DNA from: Streptomyces sp. ISL-94
GTDB lineage: Bacteria > Actinomycetota > Actinomycetes > Streptomycetales > Streptomycetaceae
DNA: 64,000 bases
Direction: 5' to 3'
NCBI RefSeq assembly: GCF_018614075.1
Contig: NZ_JAGGOZ010000117.1
Location: 1-64,000, forward strand
A model generated the notes under the pieces. The model saw only the letters and a program-made list of their open reading frames with translations. It ran no database searches and had not been told where the DNA came from. A program made the translations under genes and the position numbers. This document shows positions 26,933 to 36,459 of this stretch, in pieces (positions within the stretch are counted from its first letter, which is position 1; every line of letters begins with the position of its first letter).

Positions 26933-27619
26933 GTGACTGCCGCCGACAAGCCCGTCCCTCCCCCGGCCCCAGGCACCCACCCGGCCCGCGGGCCCGCTTC
27001 CTTCCTGGCCGCCGCAGCGGCACTGGAGGCCATCGGCAACACCGTGCGCGAGGCCCAGAGCGCCGGCCCCGCCACGCCCCCGACGGACGATGGCCCGGAG
27101 CAGGCCCTGGCCTCACTGCTTCTTCTGCGCGAGGTACGAGAGCAGCTCGCCGGATGGGAGCCCGGCCTGATCGAAACCGCACGGGAAGCGGGCGCGAGCT
27201 GGGCCGATCTCGCAGGGCCCCTCGGGGTCGCCAGCCGCCAGGCCGCTGAACGCCGCTACCTGCGCCTGCGCCCCGGCCCGGCCGACAGCACCGGCGAGCA
27301 GCGGGTCCAGGCCGTCCGCGACCGGCGTGCCGCCGACCGCACCGTCACCGTCTGGGCTCGCGGCAACGCCGCCGACCTGCGTCAGCTGGCCGGTCAGATC
27401 ACCGCACTCACCGACCTCCCCGCCGCCGCCGAGACAAGTGTCCGTGAGCTCAGCAGTGCCCTCGGCCGCGACGACGCGGCCCAGCTCGTCGGCCCGCTCA
27501 CCGCCACCCGCGACCACCTGGGCCCGGGGCACACCGACCTTGCCGACCGCATCGACACCCTCACCCGGCACACCCGCCGGCTCCGCCGCGACAGCAACCA
27601 GCAGCGCGGCGGCACCTGA
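26933..27619 (+). CDS. rheA: RheA-like repressor of hsp18
   Basis: A 228-residue protein matching the size and position of RheA, the temperature-sensing autoregulated repressor of hsp18. A helix-turn-helix is visible near residues 80-105 (AGASWADLAGPLGVASRQAAERR). The rest is helical and Arg/Ala-rich (LRQLAGQITALTDLP). It begins at a GTG behind GGAGGA and is divergent from the hsp20 gene with the cognate operator between. The identification rests on operator, synteny and size; I cannot align it here. Its target gene is now a chimera, so its main remaining role could lie elsewhere in the genome. Confidence 0.8.
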   Translation: MTAADKPVPPPAPGTHPARGPASFLAAAAALEAIGNTVREAQSAGPATPPTDDGPEQALASLLLLREVREQLAGWEPGLIETAREAGASWADLAGPLGVASRQAAERRYLRLRPGPADSTGEQRVQAVRDRRAADRTVTVWARGNAADLRQLAGQITALTDLPAAAETSVRELSSALGRDDAAQLVGPLTATRDHLGPGHTDLADRIDTLTRHTRRLRRDSNQQRGGT

Positions 27620-27739: not shown

Positions 27740-28777
27740 TCATGTCTGGCGCAGGGGTACGTACGCCTGCTCGTCGAGGCCGAAGGTCCAGGCCACTCCC
27801 TGCTTGGCCGTGCGGGTATCGGGCGGGACGCGGAGCCAGTACGTGCGGCTGGTGCCGTCCGGTTCCGGGGTGGAGTTGACGACCTCCACCATGACCACGT
27901 CCTCGTCGTCCGGCAGGGGTATGCGCCACAGCACCCCCGTCTCGTCCCGGTGCACCGGTTCGGCCGCCGACTCGCTCAGGTAGCGGTCGTAGCCGTAGTG
28001 CTCCAGCATCACCCGCCGCAGCTCGGCGTTCTCCTCGTCCCGGATCCGCTCCGGCGTCAGACTGCCCAAGCCGTCCAGGAATTCGGCCGGCACGGGCATG
28101 CCGCGCCACGCGTGCAGCGCGAAGCCGTCCCGGAAGCCGAGGGCCGGACCGTCACCGCGGTCCAACCGGCCCGCCTCGTCACGGTGCAGCTCCACCGGCC
28201 GCTCGCACACCACGGCCAGCCGCTCGTACGGCCACCACCAGCCGGCCGAACGCGCCACCTCGGCCATCCCGTGCAGCGGCGACCCCGGCCCGGTGTCGAA
28301 CGCGCACAGCCAGGCCGCGTCGTGCTGGCCGAGCACCGCGTCGAGGAGCAGCAGCCGTACCTCCGCCTCCTCGGCGCGGTCCTCCGCCAACTCCAGGAGC
28401 CCAGCCCGGATCCGGTCCGTCAGCCGCTCCGTGTTCGTCCACAGGCGGCCGCCCGTGGCGTTCCACCTCTGCCCCCAGCCCCGCGGGCCGAGCCGCCCCT
28501 GCAGCCGGTCCCGCTCGGCAGCCCAGGGGGCGCTGCGCACGGCCTCCCTTACGCTGCGGCCGCGCGCCTGCGTGCCCCAGGGGCCGTCGGCGTCGAGCAG
28601 CAGACCCAGCGCGGCCCGGGGCGAGTCCGCCCAGACGATCAGTTCCGGCTCCCGCAGCCCCGCCGCGCGGTAGGCGAGGCGCACGCCGGCCTCCGCCTCC
28701 GGGCGGTTCGCCGGCGCGGTGGCCGCGGCGGCCACCCGCCACACGTCGGTGTCGATGTCGTTGTCGTTGTCGCTCAT
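27740..28777 (-). CDS. DUF6745-type protein
   Basis: A 345-residue soluble protein. The second half has repeated short motifs of the kind ELHRDEAGRLDRGDGPALGF, FALHAWRGMPVPAEF and EPVHRDETGVLWRI, characteristic of DUF6745. The first half is helical and Arg-rich. Together with the small gene at 28839 it forms a minus-strand pair divergent from the STM4015-4011 operon; DUF6745 proteins often occur next to leucine-rich-repeat and radical SAM genes, so it may be an accessory of that system. Function unknown. Confidence 0.75.
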   Translation of the reverse strand: MSDNDNDIDTDVWRVAAAATAPANRPEAEAGVRLAYRAAGLREPELIVWADSPRAALGLLLDADGPWGTQARGRSVREAVRSAPWAAERDRLQGRLGPRGWGQRWNATGGRLWTNTERLTDRIRAGLLELAEDRAEEAEVRLLLLDAVLGQHDAAWLCAFDTGPGSPLHGMAEVARSAGWWWPYERLAVVCERPVELHRDEAGRLDRGDGPALGFRDGFALHAWRGMPVPAEFLDGLGSLTPERIRDEENAELRRVMLEHYGYDRYLSESAAEPVHRDETGVLWRIPLPDDEDVVMVEVVNSTPEPDGTSRTYWLRVPPDTRTAKQGVAWTFGLDEQAYVPLRQT

Positions 28778-28838: not shown

Positions 28839-29165
28839 TCAGTCCGCCACGAGCCGTACCGAGCCCGGCACGTACTCCCGCTGGCGGACCACCCGGTACC
28901 AGCCCTTCGGCAGCGGTATCGCGGCGTGTTCCTCGTGCACCACCCGCCCGCCGTCCGGGAGGTGCAGCAGCAGCGGCCCGAGCGGACCCCGCTCCCGCAG
29001 CAGCCGGCCCGGCCCCAGCACGGCGTGCGCGTGCCCGGTCACCTCACCCAGCGCCAGCACCATCCGGCCCCGACCGTCGCGCGGTTCCCCCGGCGCGTCG
29101 TCCACCTGCGGCGGCAGCTCCGACTCGCCGATCGGCGCGATGAGCACGTCCCCTTGCCTGTACAC
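28839..29165 (-). CDS. Small protein of the DUF6745 neighbourhood
   Basis: A 108-residue protein with a GTG start at 29165, eight bases downstream of GGAGGGGG. It begins YRQGDVLIAPI, has MVLALGEVTGHAHAV in the middle, and ends PKGWYRVVRQREYVPGSVR. The QGDVL start and GEVTGHAH motif define a small family often encoded beside DUF6745 genes. It looks like a compact beta-barrel or cupin-like fold with two conserved histidines, but no activity is known. The gene precedes DUF6745 by 61 bases, so the two are probably cotranscribed. Confidence 0.7.
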   Translation of the reverse strand: MYRQGDVLIAPIGESELPPQVDDAPGEPRDGRGRMVLALGEVTGHAHAVLGPGRLLRERGPLGPLLLHLPDGGRVVHEEHAAIPLPKGWYRVVRQREYVPGSVRLVAD

Positions 29166-29227
29166 GCGTGTCCCCCTCCCGACGCGCCGCCCGGTGCGCC
29201 GCGTCGATTCGAAGGTAGGGCCGGGGT

Positions 29228-29269
29228 CTGACAACGGCCGCTCGGCCGCCCTGCCTGCGGCGTTGTCAG
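29228..29269. promoter_or_regulatory. Inverted repeat in the divergent control region
   Basis: Arms ctgacaacg and cgttgtcag (nine bases, perfect) are separated by 24 GC-rich bases. They lie between the DUF6745 pair and the STM4015-4011 operon, 65 bases before the STM4015 start, and could bind a regulator of both. The cttggtacaact sequence just after could contribute to a -10 element. Confidence 0.4.
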
Positions 29270-29333
29270 TGGCACTTGGTACAACTCTCAGCAGATCGAC
29301 GCGGACGCGACAGGCGAGGAACGGCGGGGACAC

Positions 29334-30293
29334 ATGAGCTATGCGAGCCACCTGAAGGAGTCGTACGGGCTGCCCGTCTTCGACTTCCCCGGCCCGGAGG
29401 AGGAAGTGAAGACCTCCCTGCCCGAGCCGGACGCCGTCGCGTGGCGGATCTCGTCGGACACCTACGACGCGGACGAGGCCTGGCCCGAGACGTTCGCCCG
29501 GTTCGTCGCCGCCGTCGACACCACCCGGGTCCGTGCGATCGTGGTCGGTGCCTGGGAGGACGCCTACGAAAGCGGTCCCGAGGGGATCATCGAGGCACTT
29601 CTGGCCGCGCGTCCCCGACTCCCCGCCCTGCGCGCCCTGTTCCTCGGGGACATGGAGTCCGAGGAGTGCGAAATATCGTGGATCAGCCAGGGGGACGTCG
29701 GCCCGCTCGTCGACGGCTTCCCGGAGCTGGAGGAGTTCGGCGTCCGCGGGGGCACCGGCCTCGTCATCCCGCCGTTCACCCACCGGCGGCTGCGCTCCCT
29801 CACCGTGGAGACCGGCGGCATGCCCGCCGCGGCCGTCCGGAACGTGGCCGCCAGTGCGCTGCCCGCACTGGAACACCTCGACCTCTGGCTCGGCACGGCC
29901 GGATACGGCGGGGACTGCGAGCTCACCGACGTGGAGCCCATCCTCGGCGGCGACCGGCTGCCGAACCTGCGCCACCTGGGCCTGCGGAACTCCGACATCC
30001 AGGACGAGATCGCCGCCGCGACGGCCGCCGCGCCCGTCGTGGCCCGCCTGGAGACCCTCGACCTGTCCATGGGCGTCCTCACGGACGTGGGCGGGACCGC
30101 ACTGCTCGGCGGCCAGCCGCTCACCCACCTCAAAACGCTCGACCTCCACCACAACTACCTGACCGAGCCGCTGAAGCAGCGCTTCCGGGACGTCTTGGAG
30201 CAGGCCGGCGTCACCCTCGACCTGCACCGCGGCCATGCCGAGGAGGACAAGTGGGACGGCCGCACCTGGCGCTTCGTCGCGGTCGGCGAGTAG
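29334..30293 (+). CDS. STM4015-family leucine-rich-repeat protein
   Basis: A 319-residue protein with LRR-type repeats through the central and C-terminal parts (for example LPALEHLDLWLG, LPNLRHLGLRNS, VARLETLDLSMG and LTHLKTLDLHHN at about 25-residue spacing). The N-terminus YASHLKESYGLPVFDFP is a conserved lead-in of the STM4015 family. It is the first gene of the five-gene STM4015-4014-4013-4012-4011 operon. LRR proteins usually bind other proteins, so a scaffold or target-recognition role is plausible. The exact function is unknown. Confidence 0.88.
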   Translation: MSYASHLKESYGLPVFDFPGPEEEVKTSLPEPDAVAWRISSDTYDADEAWPETFARFVAAVDTTRVRAIVVGAWEDAYESGPEGIIEALLAARPRLPALRALFLGDMESEECEISWISQGDVGPLVDGFPELEEFGVRGGTGLVIPPFTHRRLRSLTVETGGMPAAAVRNVAASALPALEHLDLWLGTAGYGGDCELTDVEPILGGDRLPNLRHLGLRNSDIQDEIAAATAAAPVVARLETLDLSMGVLTDVGGTALLGGQPLTHLKTLDLHHNYLTEPLKQRFRDVLEQAGVTLDLHRGHAEEDKWDGRTWRFVAVGE

Positions 30294-30303
30294 CGCGCCG
30301 GCC

Positions 30304-31437
30304 ATGACGGACAACGCACCGCCGCGGCGGGCCCCGGCGCGCTGGGCGGTCGTCGGCAACCCGGAGAACCGCCGCGTCGGCCTGTTCAGCCAGGCCGTCC
30401 GCGACGCCGGGCTGCCCGGACCCCGCGTCGTGCCCTGGACGGACGTGCTGCGCGCGGGCGGCGCCGAGTTCGCCGCCGACGAGCTCGTACGGCTGGACTC
30501 GCCGGGGGAGAACGCCGAGGTCGACCGGGTCCTGCGCGGTCTGGACAGTCCCACCCGGGTGGACGGGAGCGCCCGCTGGTACACGCGGTTCACCGGAGCG
30601 GTCCGTACCCTCACCGGCGGCCTCCGCATGGACGACGCCGGCGAGCTGGCCGTCCTCTTCGACAAGCGGCTCTGCCACCGCACCCTGTACCACGCCGGGG
30701 TGCCGGTCCCCCACTCCCCGACCTCGGGCGGCGGCACCCCCGTGCGCGGCTGGGACGACGTGCGGGCCCTCATGGACGCGCACGGGATGCCGCGCGCGTT
30801 CGTGAAGCCGGCGCACGGGTCCTCCGCGTCCGGGGTGGTCGCCGTCGAGACCGCCGGGCGGGGCCGGATCCGGGCGACCACCTCCGTGGAGACGGCCGAG
30901 GACGGGCATCTGCACAACTCCCTGCGGCTGCGCCGGCTGACGAGCGAGCGGGAGGTGGCGGCGCTCGTCGACGCCCTCGCCCCGGACGGACTGCACCTGG
31001 AGCGTTGGTGGCCCAAGGCCTCGCTCGACGGCAGGGCGGCCGACCTGCGCGTGGTCGTGGTGGCCGGCCGGGCCACCCACGCCGTGGTCCGCACGAGCCG
31101 CTCGCCCATGACCAATCTGCACCTCGGCGGACGACGCGGCGACCTGGCGGCCGTGACCCTGGCCGCGGGCCCGCACTGGGACGAGGCCCTGCGGATCTGC
31201 GAACGCGCCGCGGCCTGCTTCCCCGGCACCCTGTGCGTCGGGGTGGACCTGCTGCCCGCCGTCGGCTGGCGCCGGTTCGCCGTCGCCGAGGTCAACGCGT
31301 TCGGGGACCTGCTGCCCGGCCTCACCGGCCTGCCCCGCAGCGGCGCCGAGGGCCTGGACACCTACGCCGCCCAGGTGGCTGCCGCCCCCACGTACGTCCA
31401 GCACCACCACACGAGGAACCACTGTGCACCCGCCTGA
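30304..31437 (+). CDS. STM4014-family ATP-grasp-like protein
   Basis: A 377-residue protein of the STM4014 family. The sequence ARAFVKPAHGSSASGVVAVE near residue 160 and RFAVAEVNAFGDLLPGL near residue 325 match an ATP-grasp fold (a nucleotide-binding lysine with a Gly/Ser-rich loop, and the Glu-x-Asn metal motif), so ATP-dependent carboxylate ligation or phosphorylation is a reasonable inference. The ATG at 30304 is ten bases after the STM4015 stop codon. It overlaps the next gene by 14 bases. Confidence 0.86.
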   Translation: MTDNAPPRRAPARWAVVGNPENRRVGLFSQAVRDAGLPGPRVVPWTDVLRAGGAEFAADELVRLDSPGENAEVDRVLRGLDSPTRVDGSARWYTRFTGAVRTLTGGLRMDDAGELAVLFDKRLCHRTLYHAGVPVPHSPTSGGGTPVRGWDDVRALMDAHGMPRAFVKPAHGSSASGVVAVETAGRGRIRATTSVETAEDGHLHNSLRLRRLTSEREVAALVDALAPDGLHLERWWPKASLDGRAADLRVVVVAGRATHAVVRTSRSPMTNLHLGGRRGDLAAVTLAAGPHWDEALRICERAAACFPGTLCVGVDLLPAVGWRRFAVAEVNAFGDLLPGLTGLPRSGAEGLDTYAAQVAAAPTYVQHHHTRNHCAPA

Positions 31438-32374
31438 GAGCGACCGGCCGCTGACCGGCCGGCCGCTGACCGAGCACGACACGACGCGCGGGGACGACAC
31501 GGCACACCCGGGCGGCACGACGCACCGGGCCGACGCGACGCCGCCCGAGCGCGCGCCGCTCCCGGACATGAACGAGGTCGTCGGCCGCGACGACCTGCTC
31601 CTGCTCACCCTGGACACCCTCCGGTACGACGTCGCCGTCGAACTGGCCGCCGCCGGGCGCATCCCGAACCTGGCCCGCCACCTCCCGGGCGGTGTCTGGG
31701 AGCGGCGGCACGCCCCGGGCAGCTTCACCTACGCCTCGCACCAGGCGATGTTCGCCGGGTTCCTGCCCACGCCCGCCGCGCCCGGCCCGCACCCGCGGCT
31801 GTTCGCAGCGCGCTTCGCCGGCAGCGAGACAACCGCCGGGCGGACCTTCGTGTTCGACACCCCCGACCTGGTGTCCGGCCTGGCCGCGGCCGGGTACCGG
31901 ACGGTGTGCATCGGCGGCGTCGGATTCTTCAACAAGCAGGGGGCGCTGGGCGATGTACTCCCGGGCATGTTCCAGGAGAGCCACTGGGAACCGGAGTTCG
32001 GCGTGGCGTCCCCCACCTCCTTCGAGGCACAGGTCGCGCGGGCCGAGCGGGTCGTCGCCGAGCTGCCGGCGGGCCGGCGGTTGTTCCTCTTCCTCAACGC
32101 CTCCGCCCTGCACCAGCCCAACTGGTTCCACCTGCCCGGCGCCGCCTGCGGGGCGCGGGACACCCGCGCCACCCACGCCGCCGCCCTGGAGTACATCGAC
32201 CGGCACATCGGCCGGCTCTTCCGCGCGATGAGCTCCCGCCGCCGCTGCTTCGCCATCGTCTGCTCCGACCACGGCACCACCTACGGCGACGACGGCTACA
32301 CCGGCCACCGCCTCGCCCACGAGGCCGTGTGGACCGTGCCGTACGCCCACTTCTTCCTGGAGCCGTCCGCATGA
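31424..32374 (+). CDS. STM4013/SEN3800-family sulfatase-like hydrolase
   Basis: A 316-residue protein of the alkaline phosphatase/sulfatase superfamily. LLLTLDTLRYDV near residue 60 gives the first metal-binding aspartates, and CSDHGTTYGDDGYTGH near residue 282 the second metal site. It lacks the Cys/Ser-x-Pro-x-Arg sulfatase maturation motif, suggesting a phosphohydrolase-type role. The GTG at 31424 has GAGGAA upstream; an ATG at 31568 nearer to the family core has no ribosome site. The first 48 residues are a low-complexity extension. It overlaps STM4014 and STM4012, showing tight translational coupling. Confidence 0.86.
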   Translation: MHPPESDRPLTGRPLTEHDTTRGDDTAHPGGTTHRADATPPERAPLPDMNEVVGRDDLLLLTLDTLRYDVAVELAAAGRIPNLARHLPGGVWERRHAPGSFTYASHQAMFAGFLPTPAAPGPHPRLFAARFAGSETTAGRTFVFDTPDLVSGLAAAGYRTVCIGGVGFFNKQGALGDVLPGMFQESHWEPEFGVASPTSFEAQVARAERVVAELPAGRRLFLFLNASALHQPNWFHLPGAACGARDTRATHAAALEYIDRHIGRLFRAMSSRRRCFAIVCSDHGTTYGDDGYTGHRLAHEAVWTVPYAHFFLEPSA

Positions 32375-33732
32375 CCGCCCCCGCCGCCCTCCCCACTCCG
32401 ACCCGCGTCCGGCCGTACCAGAGTTACGTCTACGCCTACCCGCACAAGACGGCGTACCGTCCGCTGGCCGGCCGCCCGGCTCTGGGCGACCTGTGGCGGG
32501 GCGAGCGCAAGGACGCGCTCTCCCTCTACGTCCACATACCGTTCTGCGAGGTCCGCTGCGGGTTCTGCAACCTCTTCACCCGGATCGGCGCCCCCGACGG
32601 CCTGACCGGCCGCTACCTCGACGCACTCGACCGCCAGGCCGCGGCCGTCCGCGAGGCCCTCGGCGACGACGGCCCGGTGCGCTTCGCCGGCGCCGCGTTC
32701 GGCGGTGGCACCCCGACCTTCCTGACGGCGGACGAGCTGGACCGGCTCTGCGACATCGCCGAGCACCGCATGGGCGCCGACCTCCGGGCCGTCCCGCTCT
32801 CCGTGGAGGCCTCGCCCGCCACCGCGACCGCCGACCGCCTCGCCGTCCTCGCCGAGCGCGGCACCACCCGCCTCAGCATCGGCGTGCAGAGCTTCGTGGA
32901 CGAGGAGGCCCGCGCCGCCGTCCGCCCCCAGCGCCGTGCCGACGTGGACGCCGCGCTCGGCCGGATCCGCGAAGCCCGCATCCCCGTCCTCAACATCGAC
33001 CTCATCTACGGCATCGACGGCCAGACCGCCGCCACCTGGCGCGCCTCCCTGGACGCCGCCCTCGCCTGGCAGCCCGAGGAGCTGTACCTCTACCCCCTGT
33101 ACGTCCGCCCCCTCACCGGTCTCGCCCGGCGCACCGCGCACACCGACCGCGCGTGGGACGAACAGCGCCTGAACCTCTACCGGCAGGGCCGCGACCACCT
33201 CCTCGCGCACGGCTACGAGCAGGTGTCGATGCGGATGTTCCGCCGCACCGGCGCGGCCCCGCAGGGCCCCGACGACCACGCCTGCCAGACCGACGGCATG
33301 ATCGGCCTCGGCTGCGGCGCCCGCTCGTACACCTCCGCCCTCCACTACTCCTTCGACTACGCGGTCGACATGGGACAGATCCGGGCGATCATCGACGACT
33401 ACACGGGCACCGAGGAGTTCGGCCGGGCGGTGCACGGCCGGTATGTGGACGGCGACGAGGCCCGCCGCCGCCATCTCCTCCAGTCCGTGCTCCAAGCCCG
33501 GGGCATGCCGGTCGCCGACTACCGCGCCCGGTTCGGCACCGACCCGTTCGAGGACTTCCCCGGGGAGCTGGCCGCCTTCGCGGCCCGCGGCTGGCTCGAC
33601 GCCCGCGCCGGCGGGCCGGGCGGCGGGCTCCTGCGGCTCACCCCCGAAGGGCTCGCCCACTCCGACGCGCTCGGCCCCGAGCTGTTCTCCCCCGCCGTAC
33701 GGGCGGCGATGGCCGCCTACGATCCCAAGTAG
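32371..33732 (+). CDS. STM4012-family radical SAM protein
   Basis: A 453-residue radical SAM enzyme related to HemW (coproporphyrinogen oxidase-like). The [4Fe-4S]-binding CEVRCGFC motif is at residues 59-66, followed by a GGGTP motif near residue 112 and the HemW-type block VLNIDLIYGIDGQT near residue 205. The C-terminal part resembles the HemW C-terminal domain. It starts in ATGA overlap with STM4013 and is followed six bases later by a second radical SAM gene. Substrate unknown. Confidence 0.92.
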   Translation: MTAPAALPTPTRVRPYQSYVYAYPHKTAYRPLAGRPALGDLWRGERKDALSLYVHIPFCEVRCGFCNLFTRIGAPDGLTGRYLDALDRQAAAVREALGDDGPVRFAGAAFGGGTPTFLTADELDRLCDIAEHRMGADLRAVPLSVEASPATATADRLAVLAERGTTRLSIGVQSFVDEEARAAVRPQRRADVDAALGRIREARIPVLNIDLIYGIDGQTAATWRASLDAALAWQPEELYLYPLYVRPLTGLARRTAHTDRAWDEQRLNLYRQGRDHLLAHGYEQVSMRMFRRTGAAPQGPDDHACQTDGMIGLGCGARSYTSALHYSFDYAVDMGQIRAIIDDYTGTEEFGRAVHGRYVDGDEARRRHLLQSVLQARGMPVADYRARFGTDPFEDFPGELAAFAARGWLDARAGGPGGGLLRLTPEGLAHSDALGPELFSPAVRAAMAAYDPK

Positions 33733-33738
33733 GCGCCC

Positions 33739-34656
33739 GTGCACCACCTGCCACTCCCCGGCGGCCCCCTCCGGAGCCGAGACGCGCACCTGACCGTCCT
33801 CTACCGCGGTCCGCTCGCCTCGTGCGACTACGCCTGCCCGTACTGCCCGTTCGCCAAGCGGCGCGACACCCCGGAGCAGCTGCGGGCGGACCGGGCGGCC
33901 CTCGAACGCTTCACGGGCTGGGCGGCCTCCCACACCGAGGGCCGGCTCTCCGTCCTCTTCACCCCCTGGGGCGAGGGACTGGTCCGCTCCTGGTACCGAC
34001 GGGCCCTGGTCGAACTCTCGCACCGGCCGCGCGTCGAGCGCGTCGCCATCCAGACCAACCTCAGCTGCCGCACCGACTGGCTGGCGGACGCGGACCCCGC
34101 CACCGTGGCCCTGTGGTGCACCTACCATCCCGGCCAGACGCCGTACGAACGCTTCCTGGGGAAGGTGCGCGACCTCGCCGACCGCGGCATCCGGCACAGC
34201 GTCGGCATCGTCGGTCTGCCCGAGAACCTGGAGCACGCCCGCCGGCTGCGCGCCGCCCTGCCCGGCCACGTCTACCTCTGGGTCAACGCGGCCGAGGGTC
34301 ACACCTACACCGACGAGGAGGCCGCGGCCTGGACCGCCCTGGACCCGCTCTTCCCGTACAGCCGCCACCCGCACCGCTCGGCCGGACTGCCGTGCCGGAC
34401 GGGCGAGTCGGTCATCTCGGTGGACGGCGAGGGCACGGTCCGCCGCTGTCACTTCGTCCGTACGGAGCTGGGCAACCTCTACGACGGTTCCTACCGGGTG
34501 GCCCTCGCGCCGCGCCCCTGCCCGCTGGCCGTCTGTGACTGCCACATCGGGTACGTCCACCTGGAGACGCTGCCGCTCTACGACGTGTTCGCAGGCGGCG
34601 TCCTCGAACGCGTCCCCGCCGCCCCGGCCCCCACGCTTCTTCCCCTCGTCCGCTGA
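33739..34656 (+). CDS. STM4011-family radical SAM protein
   Basis: A 305-residue radical SAM protein starting at a GTG. The cluster motif CDYACPYC lies at residues 29-36. The C-terminal 80 residues contain several cysteines (RRCHF, RPCPLAVCDCHIG), suggesting auxiliary iron-sulphur ligands as in SPASM or twitch domains, which are typical of peptide or RiPP-modifying enzymes. It is the last gene of the STM4015-4011 operon. I see no obvious precursor peptide nearby. Confidence 0.9.
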   Translation: MHHLPLPGGPLRSRDAHLTVLYRGPLASCDYACPYCPFAKRRDTPEQLRADRAALERFTGWAASHTEGRLSVLFTPWGEGLVRSWYRRALVELSHRPRVERVAIQTNLSCRTDWLADADPATVALWCTYHPGQTPYERFLGKVRDLADRGIRHSVGIVGLPENLEHARRLRAALPGHVYLWVNAAEGHTYTDEEAAAWTALDPLFPYSRHPHRSAGLPCRTGESVISVDGEGTVRRCHFVRTELGNLYDGSYRVALAPRPCPLAVCDCHIGYVHLETLPLYDVFAGGVLERVPAAPAPTLLPLVR

Positions 34657-34933: not shown

Positions 34934-35665
34934 TCAGGCCGGGGCGTTCCAGGCGGTCGTCAGGCCGTCCAGCCACGCGGGCGGCAGCTCTGCGGCGTTC
35001 CACTCCTCCCGCAGCGCCTGCGGCGCGGCGATGAGCCGCTCCAGTACGGCGATGCTCGTGGCGGAGTGGAGGAGCGAATAGCGGCCGTGGACCGTGATCG
35101 TGCTGCCCGGTCCGAACGCAGCGAACAGCCGCTCCAGCCGGGTGCGGTGGGCCGCGGCGAACTGCGTCAGCCGCCCGGCGTACCCGGCCCGCTGCCGGGG
35201 GCTCATGGTGGTGAGGACGGCGGCGAGTACCTCCTCGGTCACCTCCGGATCCAGCTCCGAGGCCGCGGTGAACGACAGGTACAGGGGTGTGAGTGCCACC
35301 CGCGCCCGCTCCACCTCCATCCGCCCGGCCGGCGGACGCTCCCCGGCCGGGCCCGGCTGCCCCTCAGCCCCCACGACCCGTAGCAGGGTCCGCTCGGCAA
35401 CGGCGCCGAGCTCCTCCAGGAGGTGCCCGGCGCCGTCGAGCCAGCCCGACTCGTACGCCGCGCCCTTGTCCCCGGGCGCGCTCCGGGCGCCGCCGCTCAG
35501 CTCCTCGTGCGCGAGAGCCAGTGCACCCGCCTCGACGAGCCCGGTCAGTTCCCGCGCGTCATCGGAAGGGACCCCCGCCCGCGCGAGGAGCTGCAGCAGC
35601 GTCGTCCTCGCGTTGTCGACACTGACCTCGTCCGGCCACTGCCGTCCTTCGTCAGCCGCGTTCAT
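34934..35665 (-). CDS. Hypothetical helical protein
   Basis: A 243-residue, mostly helical soluble protein starting at the ATG at 35665 behind GAGGAGG. The frame stays open upstream to another ATG at 35860 (product start FRRRFRGSRDLL) behind GGGGGAAG, so a 308-residue form is possible. The sequence is Ala/Leu/Glu-rich, with no domain recognised. It converges on the STM4011 gene with a 277-base gap. Confidence 0.6.
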   Translation of the reverse strand: MNAADEGRQWPDEVSVDNARTTLLQLLARAGVPSDDARELTGLVEAGALALAHEELSGGARSAPGDKGAAYESGWLDGAGHLLEELGAVAERTLLRVVGAEGQPGPAGERPPAGRMEVERARVALTPLYLSFTAASELDPEVTEEVLAAVLTTMSPRQRAGYAGRLTQFAAAHRTRLERLFAAFGPGSTITVHGRYSLLHSATSIAVLERLIAAPQALREEWNAAELPPAWLDGLTTAWNAPA

Positions 35666-36459
35666 CGGGTCCTCCTCATCGCTCGGGTAGTGCGGTGTGT
35701 GCAACGTGATCGCTCCCTTCGACGGTCCAACGCCCGACAGCTGGGCTGTGCTCCCGGTGGCACAGCTCTGTCGGTCGGCACTGATCTCCGCCACCATGTC
35801 CGGGCTTGCCGGCACCACGTCCAGGAGGTCACGGGACCCCCGGAAGCGGCGACGAAACATCACGTCTTCCCCCCTCCCCCGGGGTGCCGGGGGCTCGCCC
35901 ATGACATACCGACCACACTGCCGGCCCCGCTCCTCGGCTCCGCACCCTTACGGTGCCTGCCGCACTGACGGCGCAGGGCCGGCACTGACTGCACTGCCTA
36001 TCCCCACGCCATTTCGCCTGCTCCCGCTCCTGGACGGGGACCCGGACGTCCAGGCAGGCGCGCTCGGGCTGCTGGACATGTCCGTCCTACACTCCTGCCG
36101 CTGTGTACGTATCCGCGGTGCTGAACGACCCACGCACCGTGGCACGCCACGAGAGTTGCTCCATCTGGGACGACCGCCCTCGGCCACTGCGGGCCGCCTT
36201 GCCGGAGTGGTCGGGTCAGGCCGCGGATTCAGCCGCCTGCGGCGAAACGACCGGCGAGACGACGGCACCGATCCGGGCGTCACCGACGCGGTCCGAGCTG
36301 TCCGCGGCACGATGTACGCCGCCGTCTCCTTGGATGTCTCCCATGACCGCGCACAGATCGAGCGCGCCGTCACGCTCGTACGCCGCTCCCGACCGCCATG
36401 CTCGGCATGCCCCGCGTCGGCCGGCCCGTCCGGCCACTCGTCCGGCAGGCAGGCCGACG
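35666..36459. other. Intergenic region, nothing firmly recognised
   Basis: About 790 bases. Near the right end a plus-strand frame reads AVRGTMYAAVSLDVSHDRAQ, which looks protein-like but has no start or family; it may be a relic. The left end holds an in-frame extension of the gene at 34934. No RNA or strong hairpin seen. Confidence 0.35.

Follow-up and report, generated by a model that had tools for sequence, protein, structure and literature searches.

A candidate C-terminal protein-tail modification system encoded by the STM4015-STM4011 gene set of Streptomyces and distant bacteria

The five genes STM4015, STM4014, STM4013, STM4012 and STM4011 form a set found in many phyla and named by Salmonella locus tags only. 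One copy lies in a 64,000-nucleotide stretch of Streptomyces sp. ISL-94 (contig NZ_JAGGOZ010000117.1, positions 1 to 64,000; hereafter the window), where it encodes a leucine-rich repeat (LRR) protein, an ATP-grasp ligase, an alkaline-phosphatase-superfamily hydrolase and two radical S-adenosylmethionine (SAM) enzymes. Comparison of 93 loci establishes a real, conserved functional gene set, and, by a modest preponderance of the evidence, suggests that the cluster is a C-terminal protein-tail modification system with STM4015 as its substrate or carrier. The features read from the sequences themselves are the conservation of the set, the C-terminal Glu of STM4015, the multiplication of this protein within clusters, the likeness of STM4014 to LysX and RimK, and, in Streptomyces, a DNA-damage-promoter motif. 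The set thereby gains a concrete biochemical proposal, one that defines a substrate and a residue and names, for Streptomyces, a condition likely to induce it.

The membership of the set is firm. Each of the five window genes exceeds the curated cut-off of its NCBIfam model (Table 1), so that both the position and the composition given in a preliminary description, which was made from the letters alone and listed a pair of radical SAM enzymes with an ATP-grasp enzyme and a phosphatase-like hydrolase, are borne out. Genome contigs were scanned with an STM4011 alignment, and the best 80 of 459 relatives were taken, which biases the sample towards the relatives of the query; together with twelve further loci (L032-L043) and the window they make up the 93 loci, one contig having been entered twice (as L040 and L050). 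The complete five-gene set is present in 82 of the 93, and the co-occurrence check that the preliminary description proposed thus finds the genes travelling together in other genomes. A protein search of plasmids placed STM4014 in 13 plasmid records, which represent eight genera and include Streptomyces, Deinococcus, Bacteroides and Salmonella; the surroundings were read for nine of the 13, one of which (Nonomuraea) is unannotated there. The set is nevertheless rare: STM4014 scores above its cut-off in six of 396 genomes of the window's phylum, with 76 more matching below threshold only, and STM4015 does so in those same six genomes, among 296 of that phylum, and, among 299 genomes of the phylum of a Janthinobacterium genome, in that Janthinobacterium genome only. 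The sole other STM4015 match on the Pseudomonadota side (L186, 33.6 bits) does not end in Glu and was set aside. In Escherichia coli, a near search found none of 5426 genomes with at least 80% of the Salmonella stretch; short matches to that stretch occur in 94 genomes, and the five matches listed all fall in the HAD phosphatase gene. Within the Creative Commons-licensed literature searched, a scope that leaves subscription papers and preprints outside, no function is assigned to the set, in keeping with the preliminary description; in the portions of text available, the STM locus names appear in two papers, one name once in each and only in tables, and the same literature holds no mention of DUF6745 or of the family phrases of the set.

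The evidence that STM4015 is acted upon comes from its C-terminus. STM4015 is present once in 51 loci, twice in 31, four times in one and six times in one, and is absent from nine; at least two copies were counted in 33 of the 93 loci, or in 32 if the frameshifted gene of L107, which is among the 31 two-copy loci, is taken as the single gene that it is. Glu is the last residue in 121 of 124 STM4015 open reading frame (ORF) hits, and the others are a copy in L053 that runs four residues beyond ...AVSE and two pieces of the frameshifted L107 gene, whose third piece terminates in VAVGE. The quantitative set, assembled from hits above 250 bits plus three extra loci, holds 118 distinct proteins; the filter dropped seven hits (two from L046, one from L047, a partial one from L076 and the three pieces from L107), five of which are Glu-terminal. 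Among the 118, 117 terminate in Glu, the lone exception being the four-residue extension just described, and the tail follows the consensus R-[YF]-x-A-V-[SGA]-E, with Arg at position -7 in 106 proteins, Tyr (97) or Phe (15) at -6, Ala at -4 in 97 and Val at -3 in 105. The Glu persists in all 24 representatives retained at 50% redundancy, and in an alignment of 37 hand-picked rows with a mean column identity of 24% the last residue is one of only two invariant columns. Upstream of the tail runs a variable, gapped and acidic linker, in which residues -28 to -9 are 36% Asp plus Glu versus 15% in the body; the body in the window is an LRR array (Pfam LRR_4, LRR_8). The seven tail residues average 0.59 identity in pairs whose bodies share less than 45% (body mean 0.37), and paralogue bodies within single clusters have a median identity of 51% (44 pairs).

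Several controls bear on how special this end is. A search of six genomes for the strict tail pattern gave ten matches; in eight of them a stop codon follows, and these all lie at STM4015 genes, whereas the other two end in TGG with no stop. Glu ends only three of 20 LRR ORFs outside the clusters in six cluster-bearing genomes. The commonest last residues of the other four cluster enzymes are K, A, R and P (50, 33, 36 and 18, respectively, of 85-93 hits each). A final codon shared with the start of the next gene does not account for the Glu, since both GAA and GAG are used and the stop behind the Glu is TAG or TAA in 49 of the 121 cases. Packing can fix a last residue, and the two proteins of the neighbouring partner module described below also have conserved ends, so that the cluster might be an ordinary metabolic one whose Glu end is incidental to the structure of the LRR cap; this is improbable, as a linker that varies and contains gaps precedes the tail, the tail persists even on highly diverged bodies, and 17 of the 20 LRR homologues outside clusters lack a Glu end. 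The conservation of the tail is strong, whereas its chemistry can be put forward only conditionally. Because the Glu tail is near-invariant, the protein is multiplied in clusters and its neighbour is a LysX/RimK-like ligase, STM4015 looks like a substrate or carrier of the cluster, and not, as the preliminary description had it, a protein whose LRR body serves the recognition of a macromolecule.

A form of that earlier view survives as a rival to tail modification, in which the tail is a docking signal and STM4015 a recognition subunit that keeps the enzymes together during their action on another macromolecule or a metabolite. LRR bodies usually bind proteins, and four STM4015 proteins, from Bacteroides, Myxococcales, Gemmata and Saprospiraceae (L035, L046, L047 and L122), carry an N-terminal WGR domain, which is a DNA-binding domain in poly(ADP-ribose) polymerases. 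A docking peptide, however, seldom needs a fixed Glu end across phyla, and a C-terminal Glu is a known target of this type of ligase; docking in place of modification could apply, although we regard it as rather doubtful. The STM4015 proteins of L046, L047 and L181 also match TIGR02996 (L046 below the cut-off). One of the three Glu-ending LRR homologues outside clusters, an orphan protein with the end SARYIPSFE in a genome that has a cluster (L163 2444-3256), may be a true distant relative and is a possible extra substrate.

The second line of evidence for tail modification is the ligase. The AlphaFold2 model of STM4014 (mean predicted local distance difference test, pLDDT, 90.7) most resembles LysX/ArgX and RimK, which fill the first nine matches in the PDB (Z 23.8-21.5). 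The best is 5k2m, LysX/ArgX with LysW-gamma-AAA (Z 23.8, root-mean-square deviation 2.6, 262 residues aligned), effectively tied with 3vpb (ArgX with LysW, 23.6), 3vpd (LysX, 23.5) and 7qys (RimK, 23.0). At E values up to 0.1, the other NCBIfam matches of STM4014 are to RimK, LysX and MptN only, all far below cut-off, and a profile search with an STM4014 alignment (A11) returned five matches in all, every one LysX/ArgX/RimK. The profile matches of STM4014 to 1uc8 are weak (E 3.9e-5 in a first search, 9.7e-6 with A11). LysX/ArgX and RimK are ligases that act on protein C-terminal Glu residues.

These likenesses suggest a scheme in which the tail as substrate, the carboxylate and amine used, the order of the steps and the fate of the product, retained on or released from the LRR protein, are all proposed. 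STM4015, with its LRR body, flexible acidic linker and R-[YF]-x-A-V-[SGA]-Glu tail, would be the ribosomally made substrate or carrier. STM4014 would phosphorylate a carboxylate of the last Glu and join to it an amine, which is probably an amino acid; STM4012 and STM4011 would next modify the added group or residues of the tail; and STM4013, joined in some lineages by a HAD phosphatase, would remove or transfer a phosphate or similar ester. STM4012 has three Cys residues (C59, C63 and C66) invariant in seven sequences, and its best solved relatives are HemN (1olt) and the methyltransferase NocN (9p2u). STM4011 carries the extra C-terminal cysteines that the preliminary description had noticed in one of the radical SAM enzymes: C219, C237, C261, C266 and C268 are invariant in eight aligned proteins. 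It has no Pfam match above cut-off, and only its C-terminal part matches a solved protein well, namely SkfB (6efn, E 1.7e-4). SkfB, annotated as a sporulation killing factor maturation protein, is a radical SAM enzyme that matures a ribosomally synthesized and post-translationally modified peptide (RiPP). The best solved relatives of STM4013 are NPP-type phosphodiesterases, followed by sulfatases; T54, invariant in seven sequences, occupies the position at which sulfatases have their formylglycine cysteine, and this suggests a phosphoesterase. A HAD phosphatase recurs with the set, fused to STM4011 in Bacteroides and adjoining STM4011 in Salmonella; Chitinophaga, Flammeovirga and a Saprospiraceae genome have it between STM4014 and STM4013. 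Three Myxococcales-type loci share an ORF between STM4014 and STM4013 (L049 3924-5312, L060 4108-5244, L061 4045-5208).

The systems most like the proposed one are carrier-protein pathways. In the part of PMC9303977 available, amino-group carrier proteins are described as offering the gamma-carboxylate of a C-terminal Glu and an acidic surface for chemistry on the bound intermediate, and pearlin (PEARL) pathways as modifying a ribosomal carrier C-terminally, in some cases with radical SAM enzymes. By predicted fold, STM4014 groups with the ATP-grasp ligases LysX/ArgX, which are tied with RimK, although its scores stay far below the NCBIfam cut-offs for LysX and RimK; as with LysW, it is paired with a protein whose Glu end (117 of 118 STM4015) follows an acidic stretch. 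STM4015 differs in its LRR architecture and its length of about 280 to 560 residues; it is often encoded more than once per cluster and lacks the small body by which LysW is commonly defined. LysW pathways use a kinase, a reductase and an aminotransferase, in place of which the STM set has a hydrolase of alkaline-phosphatase type and two radical SAM enzymes. RimK, acting on ribosomal protein S6, is likewise an ATP-grasp ligase of a protein C-terminus (Z 23.0-22.2 against STM4014); the STM set differs in having a dedicated LRR partner in the operon and further, proposed radical SAM steps. In contrast to the pearlin pathways, a scan of the seven window cluster proteins gave no PEARL (LanB-like) enzyme and no protease, and unlike the short peptides of SkfB-type enzymes, with which STM4011 shares the auxiliary cysteine domain, the proposed substrate is a large protein. 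Radical SAM RiPPs have a ribosomal substrate with a conserved C-terminal core, encoded next to its modifying enzymes; STM4015 shows the conserved tail, and its modification is proposed. If the proposal holds, carrier-protein and RiPP chemistry would extend to large LRR proteins.

Two further alternatives share parts of this scheme. In the first, STM4015 would be a reusable scaffold for a small molecule that is cut off and released, as with LysW and the pearlin carriers, the Glu being a handle only. The proteins nearest to STM4014 in structure work in carrier-protein pathways, radical SAM enzymes are known from carrier-peptide pathways (PMC9303977, in the part seen), and export is conceivable, since ABC transporter ATPases flank five and MFS transporters three of 39 non-Streptomyces loci, at varying distances. 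Comparison of the 3673 ORFs of at least 50 residues in these 39 loci, however, yielded just five ORF groups present in at least three lineages, namely the ABC ATPases, the MFS transporters, the HAD phosphatase and two probable wrong-frame ORFs; no peptidase is among them, hence no release step is visible, and several diverged STM4015 bodies per cluster would be superfluous for a mere scaffold. Release is a tentative alternative. Among these ORFs of at least 50 residues there was no candidate for a hidden precursor peptide, such as the conserved small peptide for which the preliminary description had suggested a search. The second alternative is RiPP-like: STM4014 would make an intramolecular ester or amide in the acidic linker, in the manner of graspetide ligases, and the radical SAM enzymes would cross-link the tail. 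An acidic linker, an ATP-grasp enzyme and the SkfB-like auxiliary domain of STM4011 fit it, but the NCBIfam matches of STM4014 at E values up to 0.1 include no graspetide ligase model, and the position of the linker is not conserved, making this route unlikely.

A number of observations weigh against modification of the tail. Partial sets make up 11 of the 93 loci, several of them on short contigs, and in two genomes with incomplete loci the missing genes are partly on other contigs. An orphan STM4015 in genome G161 (L132/L183) keeps the tail RYVAAGE about 100 kb from the cluster of that genome, and the surrounding 8 kb or so hold no cluster gene. Glutathione synthetase (Z 21.4) and DcsG (21.1) follow close behind LysX/ArgX and RimK in fold, and in the first STM4014 profile search biotin carboxylase scored level with LysX. 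Among the partner proteins, all 51 complete QGDVL ORFs (51 of 51) have a terminal Asp and 49 of 53 DUF6745 proteins a terminal Thr, so that a fixed last residue is not specific to STM4015 here. The possible role of the tail in docking and the missing peptidase group, both discussed above, belong here too.

The proposed link to DNA damage rests on promoter motifs. In the window, 168 bases (29166-29333) separate the five genes from the divergent QGDVL and DUF6745 genes, in agreement with the shared control region that the preliminary description had proposed. The part of PMC5656591 available gives tTGTCRgtg-8nt-TannnT as the consensus of mycobacterial damage promoters that are independent of LexA/RecA (PafBC-type), and TTGTC[AG]-N11-TA is present at both divergent window promoters (29263 + and 29234 -). 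The site at 29234 matches all capital letters of the consensus, with gac in place of the lower-case gtg, and that at 29263 has TTGTCAGTG-N8-TA, with the final T one base late. With gene starts estimated from gene ends, a relaxed motif precedes the first STM4015 gene at 31 of 82 loci and QGDVL at 36 of 52, and every one of these loci is actinobacterial; 28 further matches occur in 2.98 Mb on both strands, from which about 0.5 would be expected in the stretches searched. A strict motif, which does not capture the window's own two sites, has 11, 21, 29 and 28 sites in four Streptomyces genomes (G000, G023, G107 and G161) versus 0, 1, 0 and 0 for the reversed pattern. Thirty of these 89 sites (L202-L231) were fetched and the likely first gene was translated in all; ten repair-looking genes were picked and nine more scanned, leaving 11 of the 30. 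All ten picked genes match repair or helicase families: ung twice, uvrA, uvrB, uvrC, ruvC, xseA, ogt and two of UvrD/PcrA type, the last two below model cut-offs. The nine others comprise a PD-(D/E)XK nuclease, three helicase-like proteins, GmrSD, a sigma factor, YjbR, a glyoxalase and one protein without a match.

These counts suggest that the PafBC-type motif is conserved in Streptomyces, at least in the four genomes counted; the part of PMC9380542 available reports an initial search in Streptomyces venezuelae in which the Mycobacterium smegmatis PafBC motif was apparently not conserved. The window shares with mycobacteria the consensus core at both promoters, and Streptomyces the core at DNA-repair genes, although both window sites deviate from the strict consensus and a dependence on PafBC here is a prediction from the motif. 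DNA damage is a likely inducing condition of the cluster in Streptomyces, and, if the proposal as a whole is right, the bacterial DNA-damage response would gain an unknown chemistry. Outside the actinobacteria no such link was found with the patterns used, since none of five SOS-type box patterns occurs in about 380 bases around the estimated first STM4015 start in 31 of 32 non-Streptomyces loci; L048 was represented by 170 bases, the 32nd locus, L076, was discounted for a mis-sized stretch, and the starts, being estimated from gene ends, are wrong for long proteins. It is enticing to speculate that LRR families, some with WGR domains, receive on their C-terminal Glu a radical-SAM-tailored group that acts as a built-in cofactor or reactive end, and that in Streptomyces DNA damage induces the system and the LRR/WGR bodies deliver the group to their targets. 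Such a new class of modification is offered as a distinctly speculative extension.

Table 1. Features of the STM4015-STM4011 cluster and its partner module in the window
Feature	Position	Strand	Basis
DUF6745 protein, second gene of the partner module	27740..28777	-	PF20530, E 5.2e-119
QGDVL small protein, 108 aa, GTG start, ends in Asp	28839..29165	-	no named family at curated cut-off
Promoter-like motif TTGTCAGAC-N8-TACCTT, 5' of QGDVL	29212..29234	-	motif search
Promoter-like motif TTGTCAGTG-N8-TACAAC(T), 5' of STM4015	29263..29285	+	motif search
STM4015 LRR protein, proposed substrate/carrier	29334..30293	+	NF038076, 385.7 bits (cut-off 275)
STM4015 C-terminal tail RFVAVGE plus stop, proposed modification site	30270..30293	+	pattern match, tail statistics
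STM4014 ATP-grasp ligase, LysX/RimK-like	30304..31437	+	NF038074, 449 bits (cut-off 175); AlphaFold2 fold matches
STM4013 alkaline-phosphatase-superfamily hydrolase	31568..32374 (start approximate; GTG at 31424 also possible)	+	NF038075, 424.6 bits
STM4012 HemN-like radical SAM enzyme	32371..33732	+	NF006067, 642 bits
STM4011 radical SAM enzyme, C-terminal auxiliary cysteine domain	33739..34656	+	NF038073, 412.8 bits

The NF038075 match in STM4013 starts at residue 49 of the longer ORF. Among partial sets, an actinobacterial locus has STM4014 directly 5' of STM4011 (L104 7304-9388) and another has STM4012 and STM4011 alone (L121 6943-9430), while on a Bacteroides finegoldii plasmid (L035 5707-8647) STM4013 and STM4012 are short remnants only and STM4011 is the copy fused to the HAD phosphatase. 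A role in anti-phage defence was considered and rejected, PADLOC giving one weak PDC-M51A match (E 1.5e-6) to the HemN-like protein and none for the other six window cluster proteins. Carriage by viruses was likewise rejected, as the 22 pattern matches in viral contigs include no STM4011 relatives. The window ORFs flanking the gene groups at 34934-35902 (-) and 26933-27619 (+) have no Pfam or NCBIfam match at E values up to 0.1.

The partner genes appear to form a two-gene module that is often but not always found with the cluster. Of 53 loci with DUF6745 or QGDVL, 51 contain both genes, always on the same strand (51 of 51) and in three different placements relative to the STM operon, a joint occurrence that argues for a functional link. 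The preliminary description had a DUF6745 gene facing the cluster; the gene is present and divergent, and it lies beyond the stretch that was described. The module is optional as a partner, being often beside the cluster and occurring also without it, in Deinococcus ficus, Skermanella and the Microcystis phage Ma-LMM01. The conservation from Salmonella to Streptomyces that had been ascribed to the whole assemblage holds for the five genes and not for this pair, which reading and a hidden Markov model search did not find within about 12.6-13 kb around the Salmonella, Bacteroides and Paenibacillus clusters. On the D. ficus plasmid (L187 5989-11477) the pair adjoins genes for a VWA protein and a glutathionylspermidine synthase family protein, and the stretch read contains no STM genes; in the phage, gp175 and gp174 are the QGDVL and DUF6745 pair (L189 4968-6499). 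The AlphaFold2 model of QGDVL is mostly beta (pLDDT 86.6), with the conserved stretches GHxH and H[ED]EH. Comparison with the PDB gave nothing useful (best Foldseek E 0.64, best Z 2.9), and the model has one match to a viral protein model of unknown function (E 4.9e-4).

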